From Gemmatimonadota bacterium (GTDB lineage Bacteria > Gemmatimonadota > Gemmatimonadetes > Gemmatimonadales > Gemmatimonadaceae), in NCBI GenBank assembly GCA_027622655.1, contig JAQBYI010000016.1, positions 1-61,124 on the forward strand: DNA of 61,124 nt, written 5' to 3'. Every line of letters begins with the position of its first letter. The first letter of the stretch is position 1. Position numbers and translations under genes: made by a program. A model generated the notes under the pieces. It saw nothing but the letters and a program-made list of their open reading frames with translations. It ran no database searches and was not told the DNA's origin. This document shows positions 7,168 through 58,156 of this stretch, in pieces.

Positions 7168-7232
7168 GGGTGCGATCGATGTTAACCACAGAACAGACAG
7201 ATCACACAGAGAACGTCGCCGAGCCCGGAATG

Positions 7233-7286
7233 TGTGGTCCGTGTGGTCCGTGTGGTCTGTGTGGTCTGTGTGGTCTGTGTGGTCTG
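7233..7286 (-). repeat. 9-bp tandem repeat after the hutU stop
   Basis: Six head-to-tail copies of a 9-bp unit (plus strand TGTGGTCYG; the first two copies have C and the last four T at the variable base). The array begins 4 nt after the hutU stop codon (7291-7293) and lies in the 123-nt spacer before the radical SAM gene. No T-run or large inverted repeat accompanies it. Confidence 0.95.
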
Positions 7287-7290
7287 TGGC

Positions 7291-21212: not shown

Positions 21213-21230
21213 TGCCCAAGCCATAGCACC

Positions 21231-21314
21231 GCTTGCCGGCTCGCTTGCCGGCTCGCTTGCCGGTTCGCTTGCCGGTTCGCTTGCCGGTTCGCTTGCCGGT
21301 TCGCTTGCCGGTTC
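21231..21314 (-). repeat. 12-bp tandem repeat after the ssb stop
   Basis: Seven head-to-tail copies of a 12-bp unit (plus strand GCTTGCCGGYTC; the first two copies have C at the variable base, the other five T). A degenerate eighth copy at 21315-21326 reaches the ssb stop codon. The 262-nt spacer also holds a 16-bp hairpin. Unlike the Gly/Ser codon repeats inside ssb, these copies are outside any supported gene. Confidence 0.95.
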
Positions 21315-21323
21315 GCTGGCCGA

Positions 21324-38502: not shown

Positions 38503-38546
38503 CACGCCACGGGCACGCCACGGGCACGCCACGGGCACCCCACGGG
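38503..38546 (-). repeat. 11-bp tandem repeat after wbpB
   Basis: Four head-to-tail copies of an 11-bp unit (plus strand CACGCCACGGG; the fourth has one change). The array begins 33 nt after the wbpB stop codon and lies before the hairpin terminator in the 247-nt spacer. Confidence 0.9.
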
Positions 38547-38579
38547 CGTCCGATTATCCGCTGAATCCGTCGTTTTGGC

Positions 38580-44511: not shown

Positions 44512-45486
44512 TCAGCCGGCCGCGCGGGTTGCTGCGTGCCGCGCGACGTCGGCGTCAACCATCATCATGACGAGACTCTTGAAGTCTACGGTCGCTTCCC
44601 AACCTAGCATCGTCTTGGCCCGCGATGCGTCGGCAACCAGGAGATCGACTTCCGCCGGACGCACGTGCTTGTCCGAGAACCGGACATAATCGTGGTAGTC
44701 CAGGCCTTTGTGCTCGAACGCCGCCTCGCACAACTGGCGGACACTCCAAGTGTGCCCCGTACCGATCACAAAATCCTCCGGCTCGGGCTGCTGCAACATC
44801 CGCCACATCGCGTCCACGTAGTCACCGGCGTAACCCCAGTCACGCCGCGCGTCGAGATTTCCGAGGTCAACGTGGTCGCCAAGTCCAAGTGAAATGCGCG
44901 CGACGGCGTCTGTGACCTTGCGGGTCACAAACTCGAGTCCCCGGCGCGGACTTTCGTGGTTGAACAGGATGCCGCTCACGGCGTACAGCCCGAACGACTC
45001 ACGATAGTTCACCGTGATCCAGTGAGCGTACACCTTGGCGACGCCATACGGTGAGCGCGGATAGAACGGCGTGTCTTCCTTTTGCGGCGTTTCGACTACC
45101 TTGCCGAACATTTCGCTCGAACTTGCCTGATACAGACGGGCCTTTGGCGCCGCCCGTTTCATCGCCTCGAGGAGCCTCGTCACGCCGATCGCCGTGAACT
45201 CACCGGTGAGTACCGGTTGGGTCCACGAGGTCGCTACGAAACTCTGCGCGGCCAGATTGTAGATCTCGTCCGGTGCGGTCTCCTCGATGGCGTCCATGAG
45301 CGACGTCTGGTCGAGGAGATCGGCCGACACCAGTTCGATGCGGTCAATCAGGTGGGCGATACGGTCGTACGGCGTCGTGGAGCTGCGCCGCACGATTCCA
45401 ACCACGCGATATCCCTTTTCGAGCAGAAGCTCAGCGAGGTAGGATCCGTCCTGGCCGGTAATACCGGTGATCAGTGCTGTTGGCAC
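44512..45486 (-). CDS. gmd: GDP-mannose 4,6-dehydratase
   Basis: Converts GDP-D-mannose to GDP-4-keto-6-deoxy-mannose. The 324-residue product has [19 protein letters not shown] at the N-terminus, [13 protein letters not shown], the catalytic [17 protein letters not shown] and [16 protein letters not shown], all typical of Gmd. The GTG at 45486 is chosen because upstream residues of the longer frame are not conserved. A TTGACG at 45561-45566 might be a -35 element, but its -10 is poor. Confidence 0.94.
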
Positions 45487-45669
45487 GGGACTGGGGAAGG
45501 AATGGGTGCCGGTACGGCGAAGGATGTACGGGGAACGGAAAGCGACTCTGCAACCATGTTCGTCAAAAAGTGCGTACCGGAAATGTGCATCGTGCGTGCC
45601 CAAGTCCGCACCATGTGAACGGTTCGGGAGTGGCAATCCGAACCAAAGGGCGCCTCAGGTACCGACAAG

Positions 45670-45693
45670 AAAAAAGGGAGCCTCACGGCTCCC
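45670..45693 (-). terminator. Rho-independent terminator after rpmB
   Basis: A 7-bp stem (GGGAGCC with GGCTCCC, 4-nt loop) at 45676-45693 is followed on the minus strand by TTTTTT. It lies 20 nt after the rpmB stop. This is the clearest terminator in the window and ends the ribosomal cluster before the gmd leader. Confidence 0.93.
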
Positions 45694-45712
45694 TCGATTC
45701 CTTCAGACACGG

Positions 45713-45940
45713 TCACTTCGCGGCCGCGAGGCCGGTGCCGCGCGGAGCTCGGCGGATCTTGTTCGCGTGGAGGCAGCGCGTGCAGACCTTGATGCGGATC
45801 ACCTTGCCGTCGGACAGGATCCGAGCGACCTGAAGATTCGGCTTCCAGGTGCGGCGTGTCTTGTTGTTCGCGTGCGAAACGGCGTTACCGAAGGTGACGC
45901 CCTTGTCGCATACGTAACATTTATGACGGTCAATGGCCAT
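45713..45940 (-). CDS. rpmB: 50S ribosomal protein L28
   Basis: A 75-residue ribosomal protein. It has the CYVCDKG pair (Cys8 and Cys11) and the later CTRC pair, a zinc-binding form of L28, with [20 protein letters not shown] as the conserved core. It follows rplQ by 3 nt and precedes the terminator at 45670-45693. L28 is more often linked to rpmG, so its place at the end of the alpha operon is noteworthy. Confidence 0.96.
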
Positions 45941-45943
45941 CGC

Positions 45944-46300
45944 TTAACCCTCGATCAGCTCAATGCGCGCCATTTCCGCCGCGTCACCCTTGCGGTGACC
46001 GGTCTTGATGATGCGCGTATACCCACCTTTTCGCGTCGCGTACTTCGGACCGAGTTCCTGAAAGAGCTTGTCCGCCGCGGCTCGCTTCTGGACGTGCCGA
46101 CCAGCGAGCCGGCGGGCATGCAGCGTGCCCGTCTTGGCCTTGGTGATCAGCTTCTCGACGAACGGCCGCAGCTCCTTGGCCTTGGCTTCCGTCGTGACGA
46201 TACCGCCGCTCTCGATAAGCGAAGTCGCGAGATTGCGAAGCAACGCCAGGCGCTGTTCGCTCGTTCGGCGCAGTGAGCGCCCTGCCTTGCGGTGACGCAT
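45944..46300 (-). CDS. rplQ: 50S ribosomal protein L17
   Basis: A 118-residue L17 with the standard MRHRKAGRSLRRTSEQRLAL opening, LIESGGIVTTEAKAKELRPF, and the C-terminal GGYTRIIKTGHRKGDAAEMA. It follows rpoA by 3 nt, as in most bacteria, so it is in the same operon. Confidence 0.98.
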   Translation of the reverse strand: MRHRKAGRSLRRTSEQRLALLRNLATSLIESGGIVTTEAKAKELRPFVEKLITKAKTGTLHARRLAGRHVQKRAAADKLFQELGPKYATRKGGYTRIIKTGHRKGDAAEMARIELIEG

Positions 46301-46303
46301 TTG

Positions 46304-47365
46304 CTATTCCTCGCCCTCGTCATCGGGCGCGTTGGCCGCGGCACGGCTGGGCGGCGTGCCCCAGTCGGTGACGCGAATACCGTCTTCGACTTCTTCGAAG
46401 CGCATGCCGAAGTTGAGCCCTTCGCGCTCGAGGAGATCGGCGATTTCCTGCAGCGACTTCTTGCCGAAGTTCTTGACGTCGAGAATCTGCTGCTCCGTGA
46501 GCCGTACAAGGTCGCCAAGCGTACGTACGCTGGAGTTCTTGAGTGAGTTCACCGAGCGAACCGACAGCTCGAGCGTGTCAATCGACATCGCGAGCAGCAT
46601 CGACAGCCGCGCCGCATTCGACGTCGCTTCACCGACGCTCGCGGCAGCGTGTGTGCCGAAGCCGGCGAAGTACTGAAAGTGCGTCTGAGCCAAAGCGGCT
46701 GCATAGCTTACCGCTTCTTCAGGCGTCAGCGTGCCATTGGTCTCGACCGTCATCACGAGACGGTCATAATCGGTACGCTGCCCGACACGCGTTTCGCTGA
46801 CCGAGAAGTTCACGCGACGAACCGGCGAATAGAGCGAATCGACGCGCACCAGATCAACGGGCAGCGAGCGATCGGACGGGTGCTGCTCCGCCTCGACATA
46901 CCCGCGCCCCTTGTTCACATACAGTTCGACAGAGAGATCCTTGTCGTCCTGAAGCGTGAAGAGGTGGTGCTTGGGATTCACGACAGTCACGCCGTTCTGG
47001 TTCTCGACGGCGGCGGCAGTCACCGCGCCGGCGCGCGAGACGTTGATGCGGAGGATCGTGTCCTCTACGTCGTCGTCGAGCTGCAGGGTGAGCGTCTTGA
47101 GGTTACCGATGATCTGGTGAACGTCTTCGACGACGCCCGTGATCGTCTGGTGCTCATGGAGTACGCCGTCGATACGAAACGCCCAGACGGCCGACCCGCG
47201 CAGCGACGAAAGCAGCATGCGCCGCATCGCGTTGCCCAGCGTGTGACCGAAGCCGCGTTCCAGCGGCTGTAGGCGAAACTCGCCGATATTCGGACTGTCG
47301 TCGCGCTTTGTCGCTTCTACGAGCGCCGGGCGAACGAGCCCGCGCAGATCAATTGCCTGTGCCAT
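46304..47365 (-). CDS. rpoA: DNA-directed RNA polymerase subunit alpha
   Basis: A 353-residue alpha subunit. The N-terminal domain (about 1-235) carries ERGFGHTLGNAMRRMLLSSL, the dimerisation block. The C-terminal domain (about 275-335) has LELSVRSVNSLKNSSVRTLG and VKNFGKKSLQEI, which contact promoter UP elements and activators. AAGGA lies 9 nt before the ATG at 47365. It is separated from rpsD by 199 nt holding a tandem repeat and a hairpin. Confidence 0.98.
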   Translation of the reverse strand: MAQAIDLRGLVRPALVEATKRDDSPNIGEFRLQPLERGFGHTLGNAMRRMLLSSLRGSAVWAFRIDGVLHEHQTITGVVEDVHQIIGNLKTLTLQLDDDVEDTILRINVSRAGAVTAAAVENQNGVTVVNPKHHLFTLQDDKDLSVELYVNKGRGYVEAEQHPSDRSLPVDLVRVDSLYSPVRRVNFSVSETRVGQRTDYDRLVMTVETNGTLTPEEAVSYAAALAQTHFQYFAGFGTHAAASVGEATSNAARLSMLLAMSIDTLELSVRSVNSLKNSSVRTLGDLVRLTEQQILDVKNFGKKSLQEIADLLEREGLNFGMRFEEVEDGIRVTDWGTPPSRAAANAPDDEGEE

Positions 47366-47388
47366 TTGAATGCATCCTTGATGTGGTC

Positions 47389-47410
47389 AGGCGCCGCTCG
47401 CGCGGCGCCT
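47389..47410 (-). other. Perfect 9-bp hairpin in the rpsD-rpoA spacer
   Basis: AGGCGCCGC pairs fully with GCGGCGCCT around a 4-nt loop, 23 nt before the rpoA start. It has no T-run. It may slow transcription, protect the message after processing, or take part in autoregulation; none of these can be shown from sequence. Confidence 0.7.
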
Positions 47411-47474
47411 ACGCCCTGCCCCGCCCCTGACGCGCGGCAGGCCCGTCGGAATGTCAGGGATCCGACCGTTCCAG

Positions 47475-47564
47475 CGTGCTGTTGCGTGCTGTTGCGTGCT
47501 GTTGCGTGCTGTTGCGTGCTGTTGCGTGCTGTTGCGTGTTGCTGCGTGTTGCTGCGTGTTGTTG
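47475..47564 (-). repeat. 10-bp tandem repeat after the rpsD stop
   Basis: Nine head-to-tail copies of a 10-bp unit (plus strand GTGCTGTTGC). The six copies furthest from the gene are identical and the three next to it are diverged. The array abuts the rpsD stop codon with no gap and fills nearly half of the 199-nt spacer to rpoA. Confidence 0.96.
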
Positions 47565-48197
47565 CTACTTCGAATACAACTCGACGACCAACTGCTCCTG
47601 CGCCGCAATCGGAATCGACTGCCGCGTCGGGCGCTCCAGCATACGACCCGTGAACGACTCCTTGTCCACGGCAAGCCATGTGAGCGCTCCACCGCGCGCT
47701 GACTGCTCGAGCGAGGCGAGCACGGCCACGAGCCCGCGCGAGCTTTCGCGCATTCTCACGGCCATTCCCGGATCCACAACGAAACTCGCCACGTCCACAG
47801 TCTTGCCGTTCACTTCGATGTGGCGATGACGGATGAGTTGACGCGCAGCGCGACAGCTTGCCGCAAAACCCATGCGGTAGACCATGTTGTCCAGCCGGCT
47901 CTCAAGTGCCGCGAGCAGGTTGTGGCCCGTGAGGCCCGGCAGCGCGCTGACCTTCTCGAACGTGTTGCGGAACTGACGTTCCGTCAGCCCGTACGTGCGC
48001 TTGATTTTCTGCTTCTCGCGCAACTGCTTGGCGTATTCCGACACTTTGCGGCGCCGCGCGGTGCTCTGGCCGTGCTGGCCTGGCGCGTACGGCCGACGTT
48101 CAACCGGGCACTTCTCTGTGAAGCATTTCGTGCCCTTTAGAAACAGCTTGGTGCCTTCGCGACGGCACATGCGGCATGCGGGTCCGGTGTAACGCAT
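47565..48197 (-). CDS. rpsD: 30S ribosomal protein S4
   Basis: Primary 16S rRNA-binding protein. The 210-residue product has the zinc-binding Cys8, Cys11, Cys25 and Cys30 pattern near the N-terminus and the S4 RNA-binding domain (about 98-160) with LESRLDNMVYRMGFA and ARQLIRHRHIEVNGKTVDV. S4 is the translational repressor of the alpha operon in some bacteria. It follows rpsK by 3 nt. Confidence 0.98.
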   Translation of the reverse strand: MRYTGPACRMCRREGTKLFLKGTKCFTEKCPVERRPYAPGQHGQSTARRRKVSEYAKQLREKQKIKRTYGLTERQFRNTFEKVSALPGLTGHNLLAALESRLDNMVYRMGFAASCRAARQLIRHRHIEVNGKTVDVASFVVDPGMAVRMRESSRGLVAVLASLEQSARGGALTWLAVDKESFTGRMLERPTRQSIPIAAQEQLVVELYSK

Positions 48198-48200
48198 GGA

Positions 48201-48578
48201 TCAGACCCTCCGCCGCTTGGGTGGGCGGCAACCGTTGTGCGGAATCGGCGTCACGTCCTTGATGGACTTCACGACGAGCCCGGCCGACGCCAGCGCCTGG
48301 ATGGCGCTTTCGCGCCCAGATCCCGGTCCCTGCACCTTCACGTGCACGCGGCGGACACCAAGGGTCAGGGCCTCGCGCGCGCACTGTTCGGCGGCGACAG
48401 TCGCGGCAAACGGCGTGGACTTCTTCGAACCCTTGAAGCCAGCCTTGCCCGACGAACCCCACGACACGGCGTTGCCGTGCGCGTCGGTGATCGTGATTAT
48501 CGTGTTGTTGAACGTCGCGCTGACGTGGGCGATTCCTTCCGCCTCGATGACGCGCTTTGTCTTCTTTCCAATAGCCAT
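48201..48578 (-). CDS. rpsK: 30S ribosomal protein S11
   Basis: A 125-residue platform protein of the small subunit. It has [35 protein letters not shown] and the C-terminal [19 protein letters not shown] block. Its start overlaps the rpsM stop by 1 nt. The order rpmJ-rpsM-rpsK-rpsD is standard. Confidence 0.98.
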
Positions 48579-48955
48579 TACTTGGTCACCTTCTTCTTGC
48601 CGGCGATGGCGCGACGCGGCCCCTTCTTGGTGCGCGCGTTCGTATGCGTCCGCTGTCCGCGAACCGGCAACCCCTTCCGGTGACGTCCACCGCGGTACGT
48701 GCCGATGTCCATCAGGCGCTTGATGTTCATCGCGATCTCGGTGCGCAGCGCACCCTCGACGCGATAGGTCTTTTCAATTTCCTGGCGAAGCTTGTTGATG
48801 TCCGCGTCGGTAAGATCCTTGACGCGCTGGTCCGGACTCACGCCCGAGGCTTCGATGATACGGCGGGCGACGACGTGGCCGATACCGTAGATGTAGGTGA
48901 GTCCGACTTCGACGCGCTTTTCGCGCGGAAGGTCGACTCCTGAGATTCGTGCCAT
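48578..48955 (-). CDS. rpsM: 30S ribosomal protein S13
   Basis: A 125-residue small-subunit head protein that contacts the P-site tRNA and the large subunit. It has the opening [20 protein letters not shown], a helix-hairpin-helix-like [14 protein letters not shown] and the basic tail [20 protein letters not shown]. It lies 6 nt after rpmJ. Confidence 0.98.
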
Positions 48956-48961
48956 GTTTGA

Positions 48962-49078
48962 TTAGCCCTGACGCTGCTTGTGCTTGGGATTGCGCGAGCA
49001 AATGATGCGAACCACTCCGCGGCGGGTGACCACCTTGCAGTGCTCGCAAATCGGCTTGACGCTGGTACGAACTTTCAC
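48962..49078 (-). CDS. rpmJ: 50S ribosomal protein L36
   Basis: A 38-residue zinc-ribbon protein with Cys11, Cys14, Cys27 and His33 ([10 protein letters not shown] and [13 protein letters not shown]). The GTG at 49078 is chosen because it begins at the universal KVRTSVKP and has GGAG 6 nt upstream; the open frame runs 26 codons further but is not L36-like. It begins the ribosomal cluster here: no infA, map or secY precedes it. Confidence 0.97.
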
Positions 49079-49108
49079 GCTGAACTCCGACTCGAACGGC
49101 CGAGACAC

Positions 49109-49138
49109 GTTATCACACCCCGATTTGGGGCAAGTCAC
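49109..49138 (-). promoter_or_regulatory. Possible promoter of the rpmJ-rpmB cluster
   Basis: On the minus strand GTGACT (49133-49138) and GATAAC (49109-49114) are 18 nt apart, each a 4-of-6 match to the sigma-70 consensus. The -10 lies 31 nt before the rpmJ start. The 225-nt spacer and absence of an upstream ribosomal gene make a promoter in this region likely, but this exact site is a guess. Confidence 0.35.
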
Positions 49139-49303
49139 GAAGGATACCCGGGACACACCCTTGACACAAGGGGGATGACTGACGTGTACCCGAAGCGCAC
49201 CGGGCTCTCGGTGGCGTCATCAATAATGAAATCGCGCGCGTAGCCCGAACCGGTTGCGGGGCGTCGTACGAGGTTGGGGAAGCAACCGTCCCTGCCGCCG
49301 ACG

Positions 49304-50038
49304 CTATCCGCCGAGCTCGGCGACGATGTCTGCGTACGCCCGGGCCGGATCGGCGGCGGAGGTCACTGCACGCCCGAGAATGACCCACGTGGCACCTATT
49401 CCCCGCGCAACTGCAGGCGTCACGACGCGAGACTGATCATGAGCGTCGCCGCCCGGCATGCGGATTCCCGGGACGAGCGTTCCAAGGGCGTCGCCGTACG
49501 CCGCGCGCACGGCCGCAGCTTCAGCGCCGGCGCAGACCACTCCACGGGCCCCACATTCTACTGCCCGACCTGCGAATCGTAGAACCGCACCGTGGGTCGT
49601 TTCTGCAGTACTTCCGACCGCCGCGGCGTAACCGACATCGTCGAAGGACGTCAGGACAGTCACGGCCAGCACGCCCGTTCGCGCCCCCGGTCCGCCCGCG
49701 CCTTCGACGGCCGCGCGCTGCATTGCTTCGCCCCCGATCGCGTGCACCGTGACGAGATCAACACCGAGCGCCGCCGCGGACTGCGTCGCACCACGGACCG
49801 TGTTCGGAATGTCGTGCAGCTTGAGATCGAGGAACACGCGCTTGGACTGAGCAATGAGCCACTCGACCACGGCCGGACCTTCACGGGTGAACAGCTGGAG
49901 CCCGACTTTGTAGAAATCCGCTCTCGGGCCGACCCTGTCGACGAGCGACTGCGCGTCGCGCATCGTCGGCACGTCGAGTGCCACGATCGGCGTCGGAAAC
50001 GCCGATGGGCTAGCGCCGCTCGCTGAACCCGACGTCAC
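49304..50038 (-). CDS. pyrF: Orotidine 5'-phosphate decarboxylase
   Basis: Last step of UMP synthesis. The 244-residue product has PIVALDVPTMRDAQSLVDRV, the catalytic FLDLKLHDIPNTV (Asp-x-Lys-x-x-Asp), and GIRMPGGDAHDQSRVVTP near the C-terminus. The GTG at 50038 overlaps the pyrD stop by 4 nt, so the two enzymes are translationally coupled. The longer frame to 50098 lies within pyrD. Confidence 0.95.
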   Translation of the reverse strand: MTSGSASGASPSAFPTPIVALDVPTMRDAQSLVDRVGPRADFYKVGLQLFTREGPAVVEWLIAQSKRVFLDLKLHDIPNTVRGATQSAAALGVDLVTVHAIGGEAMQRAAVEGAGGPGARTGVLAVTVLTSFDDVGYAAAVGSTAETTHGAVLRFAGRAVECGARGVVCAGAEAAAVRAAYGDALGTLVPGIRMPGGDAHDQSRVVTPAVARGIGATWVILGRAVTSAADPARAYADIVAELGG

Positions 50039-50973
50039 GCCGGCCACGCGAGCGAGCCGATGATCTCGGCGATGGATCGCACACCGTGATGGGCGCACCA
50101 GCGCTCGAGATCGGCAACGACGCGCTCAGGAAGGCGCGGATCGGCGAGCGCAGCTGTCCCAACTCCGACGAGTGTTGCTCCTGCCATCAAATACTGAAGG
50201 GCGTCGTCCGCCGACCCGACGCCTCCGACACCGAGAATCGGCAATGACACCGCGGACCGGACCCGCCAAGTGGCTAGTACGCCGACCGGCCGAAGCCCTG
50301 GACCGCTCACTCCGCCGGACCCGAACCCGAGCGCGGGACGCCGCGTGGCGGTCTCGATCACGAGGCCGGGAATCGTGTTGACGACGGTGATGCCGTCTGC
50401 GCCGGCGTCGGCTGCGCACCGCGCGACGTCCGCAATATTTCCAAGCGTCGGTGAAAGCTTCACAAAGAGCGGTCGCTTCGTGGCGGTGCGCGCAAGGCGG
50501 ACGAGTTGTGCCAGCGCGTCCGCGTCGGCCCCGAACTCGAGGCCGCCTTGCCGTGTATTCGGGCAGCTGACGTTGAGCTCGTAGCCGTGATGACCATCCG
50601 CGTCATCGAGGAGCCTGATGACTTCGGCGAAATCCTCAACGACGCGCCCAACGACGTTCACAATCACGCGAGCGTGATGAAGTTCGCGGGCGAGCCACGG
50701 CAGATCGTCCCGGCGAACTGCCGCGGCGCCGGGATTCGCGAGTCCCACAGCGTTGATCATCCCGTCGCCGCAGTCGGCAACCCTCGGCGCCGGCGCACCG
50801 GGGCGAGGTTCGACACTCACGGCCTTTGTCACGAGGCCGCCCAGCCGGTCGAGGCGCATCACCCCCGCGAGCTCGCGCCCGTAGGCTGCGGTTCCCGCAG
50901 CGAGCATCAGCGGATTCTGGAATTGGATGCCTGCCGCCGCGACCGCGAGCACCGGCCGCGGCGATTGGTTCAC
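50035..50973 (-). CDS. pyrD: Dihydroorotate dehydrogenase (class 1B type)
   Basis: Oxidises dihydroorotate to orotate with bound FMN. The 312-residue product has NPLMLAAGTAAYGRELAGVM, the catalytic cysteine in LNVSCPNTRQGG, FVKLSPTLGNI, NTIPGL and GVGGVGSADDALQYLMAGA. Class 1B enzymes use a PyrK subunit; none is seen here. The GTG at 50973 overlaps the stop of the amidase gene (GTGA). Length fits the class. Confidence 0.94.
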   Translation of the reverse strand: MNQSPRPVLAVAAAGIQFQNPLMLAAGTAAYGRELAGVMRLDRLGGLVTKAVSVEPRPGAPAPRVADCGDGMINAVGLANPGAAAVRRDDLPWLARELHHARVIVNVVGRVVEDFAEVIRLLDDADGHHGYELNVSCPNTRQGGLEFGADADALAQLVRLARTATKRPLFVKLSPTLGNIADVARCAADAGADGITVVNTIPGLVIETATRRPALGFGSGGVSGPGLRPVGVLATWRVRSAVSLPILGVGGVGSADDALQYLMAGATLVGVGTAALADPRLPERVVADLERWCAHHGVRSIAEIIGSLAWPA

Positions 50974-53822: not shown

Positions 53823-55271
53823 CTACGGGTCGCGGCCGGGAACGCCGATGTCCGTCATCCGGCCGAGGTCGAGCACCTTGTCGAGCTGATCGGGCGGGAG
53901 CACGCCGAGTCGCGTTGCGAGGGCGCGAATCGACTCGCCTGTCTTGACCGATTCTTTGGCCAGTTCCGCCGCGCGTGCGTAGCCGATGTGCGGGGCCAGC
54001 GCCGTCGCGAGCGCGGCCGAACGCTCTACCCAGTAGGCAGCCTGCGCCTCATTCGCCTCGATTCCCGCGACACATCGGTCTGTAAACACGGTAACTGCGC
54101 GCGACAGTATCCCGATCGACATCAGCACATTGTGGCCCATCACCGGCATCATGACATTCAGCTCGAGCTGGCCATGCTCCGCGGAGAGCGCGACCGTCGT
54201 GTCGTTTCCGATCACCTGAAAGCAGACCTGATTGACCATCTCCGCGATCGATGGATTGACCTTTCCCGGCATGATACTCGAGCCCGGCTGCACCGCCGGG
54301 AGACGCAGTTCGTCAAAGCCCGTGCGGGGTCCGCTCGTGAGAAGCCGCAGATCACTCGCGATCCGCGAGAGCTCGATCGCGAGGCCGCGGAGCGCGCCGC
54401 TCACGCCTACGATGTCTCCCATCGACTGCATCAATTCGATGCGATTGGCGCCGAGCCGAAGATCCAGAGCCGTCGCGGTGCGCAAATGTGAGACGATCTG
54501 CTCCGGGTACTCAGCCTCCACGTTGACGCCGGTCCCGACAGCGCTCCCGCCGATTCCGAGGTCGCGCAAGTAGTCGGCAGCCTCGTCCACCCGACGCCCG
54601 CACCGCGCGATCGTGGCTGCCCATCCGGTGAATTCCTGGCCGAGCCGAATGGGCATCGCGTCCTGAAGATGCGTGCGACCAGCCTTCACGACATGGTTGA
54701 ACTCGACGCCCTTGCCCGCGAGCGCGGCGCAAAAATCGTCGAGTGCCACGCGAAGCAGCGCGAGCTCTGCAAGCGATGCCAACCGAATAGCCGTCGGAAT
54801 GACGTCGTTGGTCGACTGCGCCATGTTGACGTGATCATTCGGATGCACCGGCGCATACGCCCCGCGCGCGGCGCCGAGCAGTTCGTTCGCCCTGTTCGCA
54901 ATGACCTCGTTGACGTTCATGTTGAGCGAGGTCCCGGCACCGGCCTGAAATACGTCGACTACGAAGTGGTCGTCGAGCGACCCAGCGACAACTTCGTCGG
55001 CGGCGCGAACGATCGCATCTGCACGCAACGCGTCCAGTCGCCCCGTGGTGCGATGCGTGAGCGCGGCGGCCCGCTTGATCTGGGCGATCGCTCGAACGAA
55101 CACCCGCAGAGGACGCAACCCCGATATCGGAAAGTTCTCGACGGCACGTTGGGTCTGGGCCCCGTACAATGCGCCAGCAGGCACGACGACCTTTCCGAGG
55201 GGGTCGTGCTCAACACGATCCGCCGACTCGGCAGGCGCGGCCGAACGGCCGCTCGCGTCGGGCTCAGTCAC
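53823..55271 (-). CDS. aspA: Class II fumarase/aspartase family lyase, probably aspartate ammonia-lyase
   Basis: A 482-residue lyase. The superfamily signature GSSIMPGKVNPSIAEMVNQV is present. FQAGAGTSLNMNVNEVIANR, ENFPISGL and NQVCFQVIGND are closer to aspartases as I recall them; fumarases usually have QTGSGTQSNMN and ALTMVCAQVMGND. It therefore probably interconverts aspartate with fumarate and ammonia, but fumarase is not excluded. The GTG start at 55271 lies inside a tandem repeat; the other repeat GTGs are not in a usable frame. Confidence 0.85.
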   Translation of the reverse strand: MTEPDASGRSAAPAESADRVEHDPLGKVVVPAGALYGAQTQRAVENFPISGLRPLRVFVRAIAQIKRAAALTHRTTGRLDALRADAIVRAADEVVAGSLDDHFVVDVFQAGAGTSLNMNVNEVIANRANELLGAARGAYAPVHPNDHVNMAQSTNDVIPTAIRLASLAELALLRVALDDFCAALAGKGVEFNHVVKAGRTHLQDAMPIRLGQEFTGWAATIARCGRRVDEAADYLRDLGIGGSAVGTGVNVEAEYPEQIVSHLRTATALDLRLGANRIELMQSMGDIVGVSGALRGLAIELSRIASDLRLLTSGPRTGFDELRLPAVQPGSSIMPGKVNPSIAEMVNQVCFQVIGNDTTVALSAEHGQLELNVMMPVMGHNVLMSIGILSRAVTVFTDRCVAGIEANEAQAAYWVERSAALATALAPHIGYARAAELAKESVKTGESIRALATRLGVLPPDQLDKVLDLGRMTDIGVPGRDP

Positions 55272-55299
55272 GGCGCTGTCACGGCGCTGTCACGGCGAA
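55267..55299 (-). repeat. 11-bp tandem repeat across a stop and a start codon
   Basis: Three head-to-tail copies of an 11-bp unit (plus strand GTCACGGCGCT; the third differs at its end). The first copy contains the aspA GTG start and the third contains the stop codon (55290-55292) of the upstream lipoprotein gene. The repeat spans the whole 18-nt junction. Confidence 0.9.
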
Positions 55300-58116: not shown

Positions 58117-58151
58117 GTGTACTGTGTACGGTGTACGGTGTACGGTGTACG
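58117..58151 (-). repeat. 7-bp tandem repeat after the SDR stop
   Basis: Five head-to-tail copies of a 7-bp unit (plus strand GTGTACG; one copy has a final T). The array begins 5 nt after the SDR stop codon and lies in the 146-nt spacer before trxB. Confidence 0.92.
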
Positions 58152-58156
58152 GCAGC

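Follow-up and report, generated by a model that had tools for sequence, protein, structure and literature searches.

What does the 199-nt spacer between rpsD and rpoA do in a gene cluster that is packed tightly everywhere else? The question touches on an unsettled problem, namely how the right amount of the RNA polymerase alpha subunit is made from an mRNA shared with ribosomal proteins, and it is raised here by a locus of the Gemmatimonadaceae, a family of bacteria of soil and water. In the window (the whole stretch of 61,124 nucleotides that was analysed), the operon reads rpmJ-rpsM-rpsK-rpsD, then an RNA described below, then rpoA-rplQ-rpmB; rpsD, rpoA and the other members were named from their protein sequences and are presumably these genes. 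The landmarks of the locus are the following:

47565..48197, minus strand: rpsD, ribosomal protein S4, an open reading frame matched in 59 of 61 genomes
46304..47365, minus strand: rpoA, RNA polymerase alpha subunit, an open reading frame aligned in relatives
49079-49200, minus strand: promoter-like stretch 5' of rpmJ (TTGTGT, 17 nt, TATCCT), with its core CTTGTGTCAAG at 49160-49170 and, upstream, GTACACGTCAGT
45674-45695, minus strand: hairpin behind rpmB that resembles a terminator and has a T run, the sole such site in a scan of 45000-50000

The spacer singled out in the initial annotation lies at 47366-47564, rpsD ending at 47565 and rpoA starting at 47365, both on the minus strand. The tight packing of the other genes, on which the annotation had remarked, is equally real: 6 nt separate rpmJ from rpsM (the rpmJ start being placed separately from the ORF table), 3 nt each rpsK from rpsD, rpoA from rplQ and rplQ from rpmB, and rpsM and rpsK overlap by 1 nt in the ORF table. 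Between rpmJ and rpmB, the kissing-loop RNA is here the sole long non-coding stretch. The promoter-like stretch before rpmJ, kept in most of the genus and with a similar one in sister families, is likely the start of the ribosomal protein operon, and the hairpin behind rpmB is likely its end. A sub-threshold match to the Rfam family BTnc231 at 45664-45708 covers this terminator-like hairpin and is probably nothing else. In several sister-family genomes (L231, L235, L237, L241, L242), rpsM and rpsK seem to stand some 100 nt apart, as judged from gene ends extrapolated from alignments; the same pair overlaps in the window.

A conserved kissing-loop RNA before rpoA

One conserved RNA, which had escaped the initial annotation, spans the 60 nt between a 10-bp tandem array behind rpsD and a hairpin close to rpoA, as well as the hairpin itself. 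Its parts in the window are:

47384..47467, minus strand: the whole kissing-loop RNA, about 84 nt (match of model R1, E 1.3e-12; alignments A1 and A2)
47385..47467, minus strand: closing helix P1, GGUC (47464-47467) with GACC (47385-47388); 93.8% of cells paired for 3 pairs in A1
47449..47463, minus strand: hairpin P2 (helix a), with its 7-nt loop L2, CCCUGAC, at 47453-47459 (pair counts in A1 and A2)
47411..47446, minus strand: hairpin P3 (helices c and d), with its 7-nt loop L3, GUCAGGG, at 47425-47431 (pair counts in A1 and A2)
47435/47421, minus strand: a purine-purine mismatch within P3, which also has a basal ACG/CGU helix (pair counts)
47425..47459, minus strand: kissing helix b, 47453-47459 with 47425-47431, 7 bp (pair counts, tree)
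47389..47410, minus strand: hairpin P4, a 9-bp perfect stem, variable and lacking in some genera; 72.5% of cells paired in A1
47375..47379, minus strand: AAGGA, the likely rpoA Shine-Dalgarno sequence as read from the letters, 9 nt before the ATG and directly after the RNA

The core of the RNA consists of hairpins P2 and P3; the 7-nt loop of one is complementary to that of the other over its full length, which makes an intramolecular kissing loop. Conserved unpaired letters are few. The 9-bp perfect stem that the initial annotation had reported (47389-47397 with 47402-47410, a 4-nt loop, ending 23 nt before rpoA) does exist, but it is only P4, the variable stem of a larger RNA whose core had been missed. 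P4 is present in most genera and missing in L032, L207, L212-L214, L217-L219 and others; P1 is displaced yet retained in L027 and L034. We had initially drawn the fold as a series of linked H-type pseudoknots, a picture replaced after RNAalifold gave invariant CGC/GCG pairs, which make the second half a hairpin and thus the long-range helix a loop-loop contact.

Evidence for the pairing comes from two alignments: A1 holds 34 copies, with the fold taken from RNAalifold, and A2 holds 100 further copies, both gathered and aligned with a covariance model without helix b; all covariation tests depend on these alignments, which were built in this analysis. In A1, 22 of the 31 pairs changed on both sides, and sliding the partner by 1-3 columns left 39.9-52.3% of cells paired. 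Helix b is paired in 99.6% of cells in A1 and in 98.4% of the 671 cells in A2, where 82 cells were changed on both sides and slid partners gave 17.3-62.6%. Helix c reaches 99.0% in A1 and 98.6% in A2, helix a 82.2% in A1 (4/5 pairs changed on both sides) and 87.0% in A2 (5/5); the basal helix of P3 is paired in 93/93 cells, with both-side changes in two of its three pairs, and P4 shows such changes in 6/7 pairs of A1. The two loops occur in 19 combinations, including CCCTGAC/GTCAGGG, CCCTAAC/GTTAGGG, CCCGAAC/GTTCGGG and CCGCGAC/GTCGCGG, and all seven b pairs are kept in 124 of 134 rows, eight of the remaining ten having a gap in one loop. Cell counts are made per sequence, and counts on a tree guard against shared descent: a tree built from the ends of rpsD and rpoA (118 rows, quick method) requires a minimum of 39 pair-state changes in helix b, 50 in helix a and 59 in helix c. 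Across these three helices, G-U fills 72 cells and A-C 3, and the pairing is therefore that of an RNA of the rpoA sense strand.

The RNA is found throughout the family. In the first set, all 34 Gemmatimonadaceae loci with both genes hold it, with arms that vary and stay complementary; the motif is absent from the 14 parsed loci of two sister families, where the spacer measures -4 to 44 nt (L045 and L047, with rpoA missing or unparsed, were left out of these spacer counts). Model R1 matched 156 of 179 Gemmatimonadaceae genomes, among them 103 of the 105 of good quality, with one match per genome except for two genomes (G124 and G137) with two copies on different contigs, which are likely mixed bins. 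The 23 family genomes with no match comprise 17 without rpoA, 5 whose rpoA is truncated at the end of a contig and 1 with a contig that stops inside the motif (3 of the 23 were identified by elimination); since all 23 are without a complete locus, no intact family locus lacking the RNA was seen. Assembly breaks in the RNA or inside rpoA were noted in L220 (G128) and at contig ends of G064, G100, G118, G120 and G196. Among the 100 further copies, rpoA follows in all 100 and rpsD precedes in 92, the other stretches being short or cut; 13 of the 100 stretches were left out of the spacer counts.

Beyond the family, R1 matched 101 of 298 genomes in a sample of the phylum, all of them Gemmatimonadaceae, and, at E up to 1, 51 of 198 in a sample of the class: 45 of these are family members (E no higher than 1.6e-4), and the six outside it we take as chance (E 0.37-0.92). 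Scanning 84,980 species for an exact pattern yielded 34 stretches. Of these, 32 are from Gemmatimonadota (including Gemmatimonas and Roseisolibacter); all 32 contain rpoA, and 31 contain rpsD as well. The other two, from Streptomyces and Hymenobacter, were rejected as chance, having neither rpsD/rpoA nor a model match. A credible match outside Gemmatimonadaceae was thus not found with R1 in the phylum and class samples or with the pattern in the 84,980 species. At the level of the genomes compared, these data establish a conserved RNA with a covarying fold, on the sense strand, at one place and across the family.

Its place is defined with respect to rpoA. The distance from the end of the core to the rpoA ATG is 15-20 nt in the rows without P4 (18 of 121) and 36-60 nt in those with it (103 rows), and of the 101 rows where our script located the closing GACC, 77 have it 16-22 nt ahead of the ATG. 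Between the rpsD stop and the RNA lie 0-199 nt, apart from one outlier of 690 (L122, a 787-nt spacer, probably with a mis-parsed stop). Judged by these spacings, the RNA is fixed near the rpoA start and not at the rpsD stop. An older leader moved from the operon start was considered as a source and rejected, nothing motif-like being found in the 160 nt before rpmJ in 17 sister-family genomes; in these genomes, which represent two such families, rpmJ is the first gene of the operon and the leader before it is short.

The repeat-prone stretch behind rpsD

Upstream of the RNA, the spacer is filled by the tandem repeat:

47474..47565, minus strand: 10-bp tandem array, sense unit AACAGCACGC, 9.2 copies, 96% match, score 149 (Tandem Repeats Finder)

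Nine such units abutting the rpsD stop had been reported, with diverged copies next to the gene and identical ones further away; both descriptions agree with our results, and the copy pattern fits growth of the array from one side. Searched as two adjacent copies of the unit, the array occurs in 1 of 37 genomes, this one, and in none of the 36 relatives; all five overlapping matches to the doubled unit lie in the rpsD-rpoA spacer of this genome. Its fold is no better than that of shuffled sequences (z = 0.70). As the array is found in one genome only and shows no excess fold, we do not regard it as a functional part of the spacer. With its tandem copies of a short unit, it is a species-specific minisatellite lying outside the conserved RNA. 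It shares with bacterial minisatellites the head-to-tail 10-bp units and the diverged copies at one side, and is an ordinary case; nor is it unusual for the genome, since the window holds other minisatellites, one of which scores above it. Five further ones, each overlapping an ORF of at least 90 aa, were noted at 7231-7288 (unit 9 bp), 21230-21322 (12 bp), 38503-38547 (11 bp), 55267-55297 (11 bp) and 58117-58152 (7 bp); some of these ORFs may not be genes.

The whole segment from the rpsD stop to the RNA (47468-47564 here) is a hot spot, with unrelated inverted and tandem repeats in relatives. Of 86 rows in which this segment measures 30 nt or more, 53 contain an inverted repeat that exceeds the longest from any of 20 shuffles; other relatives have tandem runs of 7, 8, 27 or 34 bp, or nothing (repeat-rich examples are L008, L027, L029, L154, L031 and L219). 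The array, sitting in a stretch that changes freely, is probably neutral.

One has to separate two ideas at this point. The initial annotation had suggested that the spacer elements may alter the ratio of ribosomal proteins to polymerase, and such an effect is plausible, given the conserved RNA that the spacer carries next to the rpoA start; the 10-bp array is the wrong agent for it. That the array itself changes this ratio, as first read, would gain from its having added some 70-85 nt to the spacer relative to the nearest relatives, which are without it; restricted to one genome, devoid of excess fold, and replaced in other lineages by unrelated repeats or by nothing at the same place, it is an extremely improbable regulator. 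The observation named beforehand as speaking against it, related species with a spacer of the same length but no repeats, is provided in part by family spacers of 82-298 nt that lack the 10-bp repeat.

Candidate roles of the RNA

From its fold and its place, the RNA probably acts in cis to control rpoA expression at translation; we infer the translational action, the direction of the effect and the ligand. P1 would gather P2 and P3, with their loops kissing, and, in most genera, P4. The RNA ends directly before the rpoA ribosome-binding site, where it could control the initiation of rpoA translation, and rplQ would be controlled too through its coupling to rpoA. A ligand would hold the kissed form and thereby reduce 30S loading on rpoA; the RNA would then be an operon-internal operator of the ribosomal-leader type, with the control of rpoA separate from that of the upstream ribosomal protein genes. 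S4 is our first guess for the ligand, because its gene lies just upstream and because S4 regulates this operon in E. coli, and we put it forward tentatively; L17 and alpha come next.

Several observations count against translational control. A Shine-Dalgarno-like string is missing from the stretch searched in 34 of 121 rows, and a conserved switch hiding the ribosome-binding site was not found among these 121 rows. A clear likeness to the 530 region of 16S rRNA, the S4 site, was not seen in a comparison by eye; such a likeness is not claimed here, as the letters concerned vary in step with those they pair with. The position of known S4 leaders weighs on the same side: in PMC7247131 and PMC10931766, they stand at the operon start/before rpsM or before rpsD, not behind rpsD. 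Separately, a switch of L3 with the CCUGAC next to the ribosome-binding site, which is present in this genome, was rejected, as its 6-nt match recurs in only 13 of 121 rows (a count for which the loop anchor of the script is approximate).

The RNA could instead mark a boundary of mRNA processing or decay, its fold protecting or cutting the transcript and giving rpmJ-rpsD and rpoA-rplQ-rpmB different lifetimes. Its position inside the operon would suit this, as would the inverted repeats added in many relatives between the rpsD stop and the RNA (the 53 of 86 rows above) and the precedent of an element in a ribosomal protein operon regulating both upstream and downstream genes (PMC2864571); by extension, a bound ribosomal protein could act back on rpsM-rpsK-rpsD, like S8 from within the spc operon of E. 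coli. We consider this reading unlikely: the RNA keeps its distance to the beginning of rpoA and not to the end of rpsD, and the inverted repeats upstream lack conservation and do not occur in this genome. Somewhat less likely again is a constitutive element whose ligand-free fold spaces or insulates the rpoA start (a standby site, or a block to coupling): the near-fixed distance to rpoA and the scarcity of conserved unpaired letters are what one would expect of it, but a spacer seems not to need a 7-bp loop-loop helix that has been maintained over 39 or more changes.

Autogenous control, with the kissing loop bound by free alpha or by polymerase on the nascent RNA so as to restrict how much alpha is made, is a sub-case of translational control with another ligand. 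It would agree with the presence of rpoA directly downstream in every copy seen and with E. coli, where S4 regulates the alpha operon and alpha is regulated independently of the ribosomal proteins (PMC10931766); alpha would here be a putative RNA binder and ribosomal proteins are the usual ligands, so we consider it rather improbable. If true, it would mean a dedicated RNA operator for polymerase assembly across a bacterial family, with alpha set apart from the ribosomal proteins. As for a transcription signal (attenuator, terminator or promoter within the spacer), strong GC-rich stems do adjoin the gene start, but the scan found in the spacer no promoter-like site and no terminator or attenuator of the GC stem plus U run type, the pairs are conserved on the RNA sense strand, and the promoter-like stretch stands before rpmJ instead; we regard this candidate as very improbable and have rejected it. 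Control of rpoA translation stays our preferred reading, and one that lends itself to experiment in cultured Gemmatimonas: a whole family carries a compact RNA exactly at the junction of ribosomal protein and alpha genes, and exchanges of loop letters can disrupt its fold and re-form it.

Comparison with known regulatory RNAs

In the region 45400-50200 and in six loci, no family of Rfam 15, Alpha_RBS included, overlaps the RNA at E up to 1, and the Rfam models of the purine and guanidine-II riboswitches gave no match in the same sequences at the same threshold. Both riboswitches rely on loop-loop pairing of two hairpins, and the purine type also has a closing P1; the present RNA differs from them in that both of its 7-nt loops pair fully and co-vary. 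Fully complementary 7-nt loops are known from the kissing complex of ColE1 RNA I and RNA II, which forms between two molecules, whereas the kissing described here is within one.

The S8 site of E. coli has its position within the spc operon. It is, like our candidate, a ribosomal protein operator inside a long ribosomal protein operon, but its ligand and its retroregulation are proven, while the RNA before rpoA is only a putative operator (S8 is cited as a precedent in PMC2864571). The L17 leader before rplQ and the L17 downstream element are likewise RNA motifs associated with the final part of the alpha operon; they flank rplQ (PMC7247131; PMC2864571), whereas our RNA precedes rpoA, the structures being compared via Rfam scans alone.

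A close parallel is with the S4 leaders, i.e., the E. coli alpha-operon pseudoknot and those of Firmicutes, Clostridia, Bacteroidia, Flavobacteria and Fusobacteriales, which are likewise covarying cis RNAs of an operon with rpsD, rpoA and rplQ and have unrelated folds in different lineages. It stands apart from them by its place behind rpsD and directly before rpoA, its 7-bp kissing loop and its lack of an Rfam match. In the available text of PMC7247131, no S4 leader is listed for the phylum Gemmatimonadota and the string "Gemmatimon" does not occur. The literature searched held nothing on this RNA, which may have an earlier mention among the 224 RNAs of Weinberg 2017. By Rfam and that literature, no cis-regulatory RNA is on record at this place in the phylum, and the present one would be a new structural class. 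It has in common with ribosomal leaders a conserved structure backed by covariation; ribosomal leaders are 5' UTR elements upstream of their ligand's gene, whereas here rpsD (S4) precedes the RNA and rpoA, rplQ (L17) and rpmB follow it. Because it lies inside the operon, before rpoA, we do not file it as a canonical ribosomal leader; it may be a cis-regulatory RNA that works like one from a different position.
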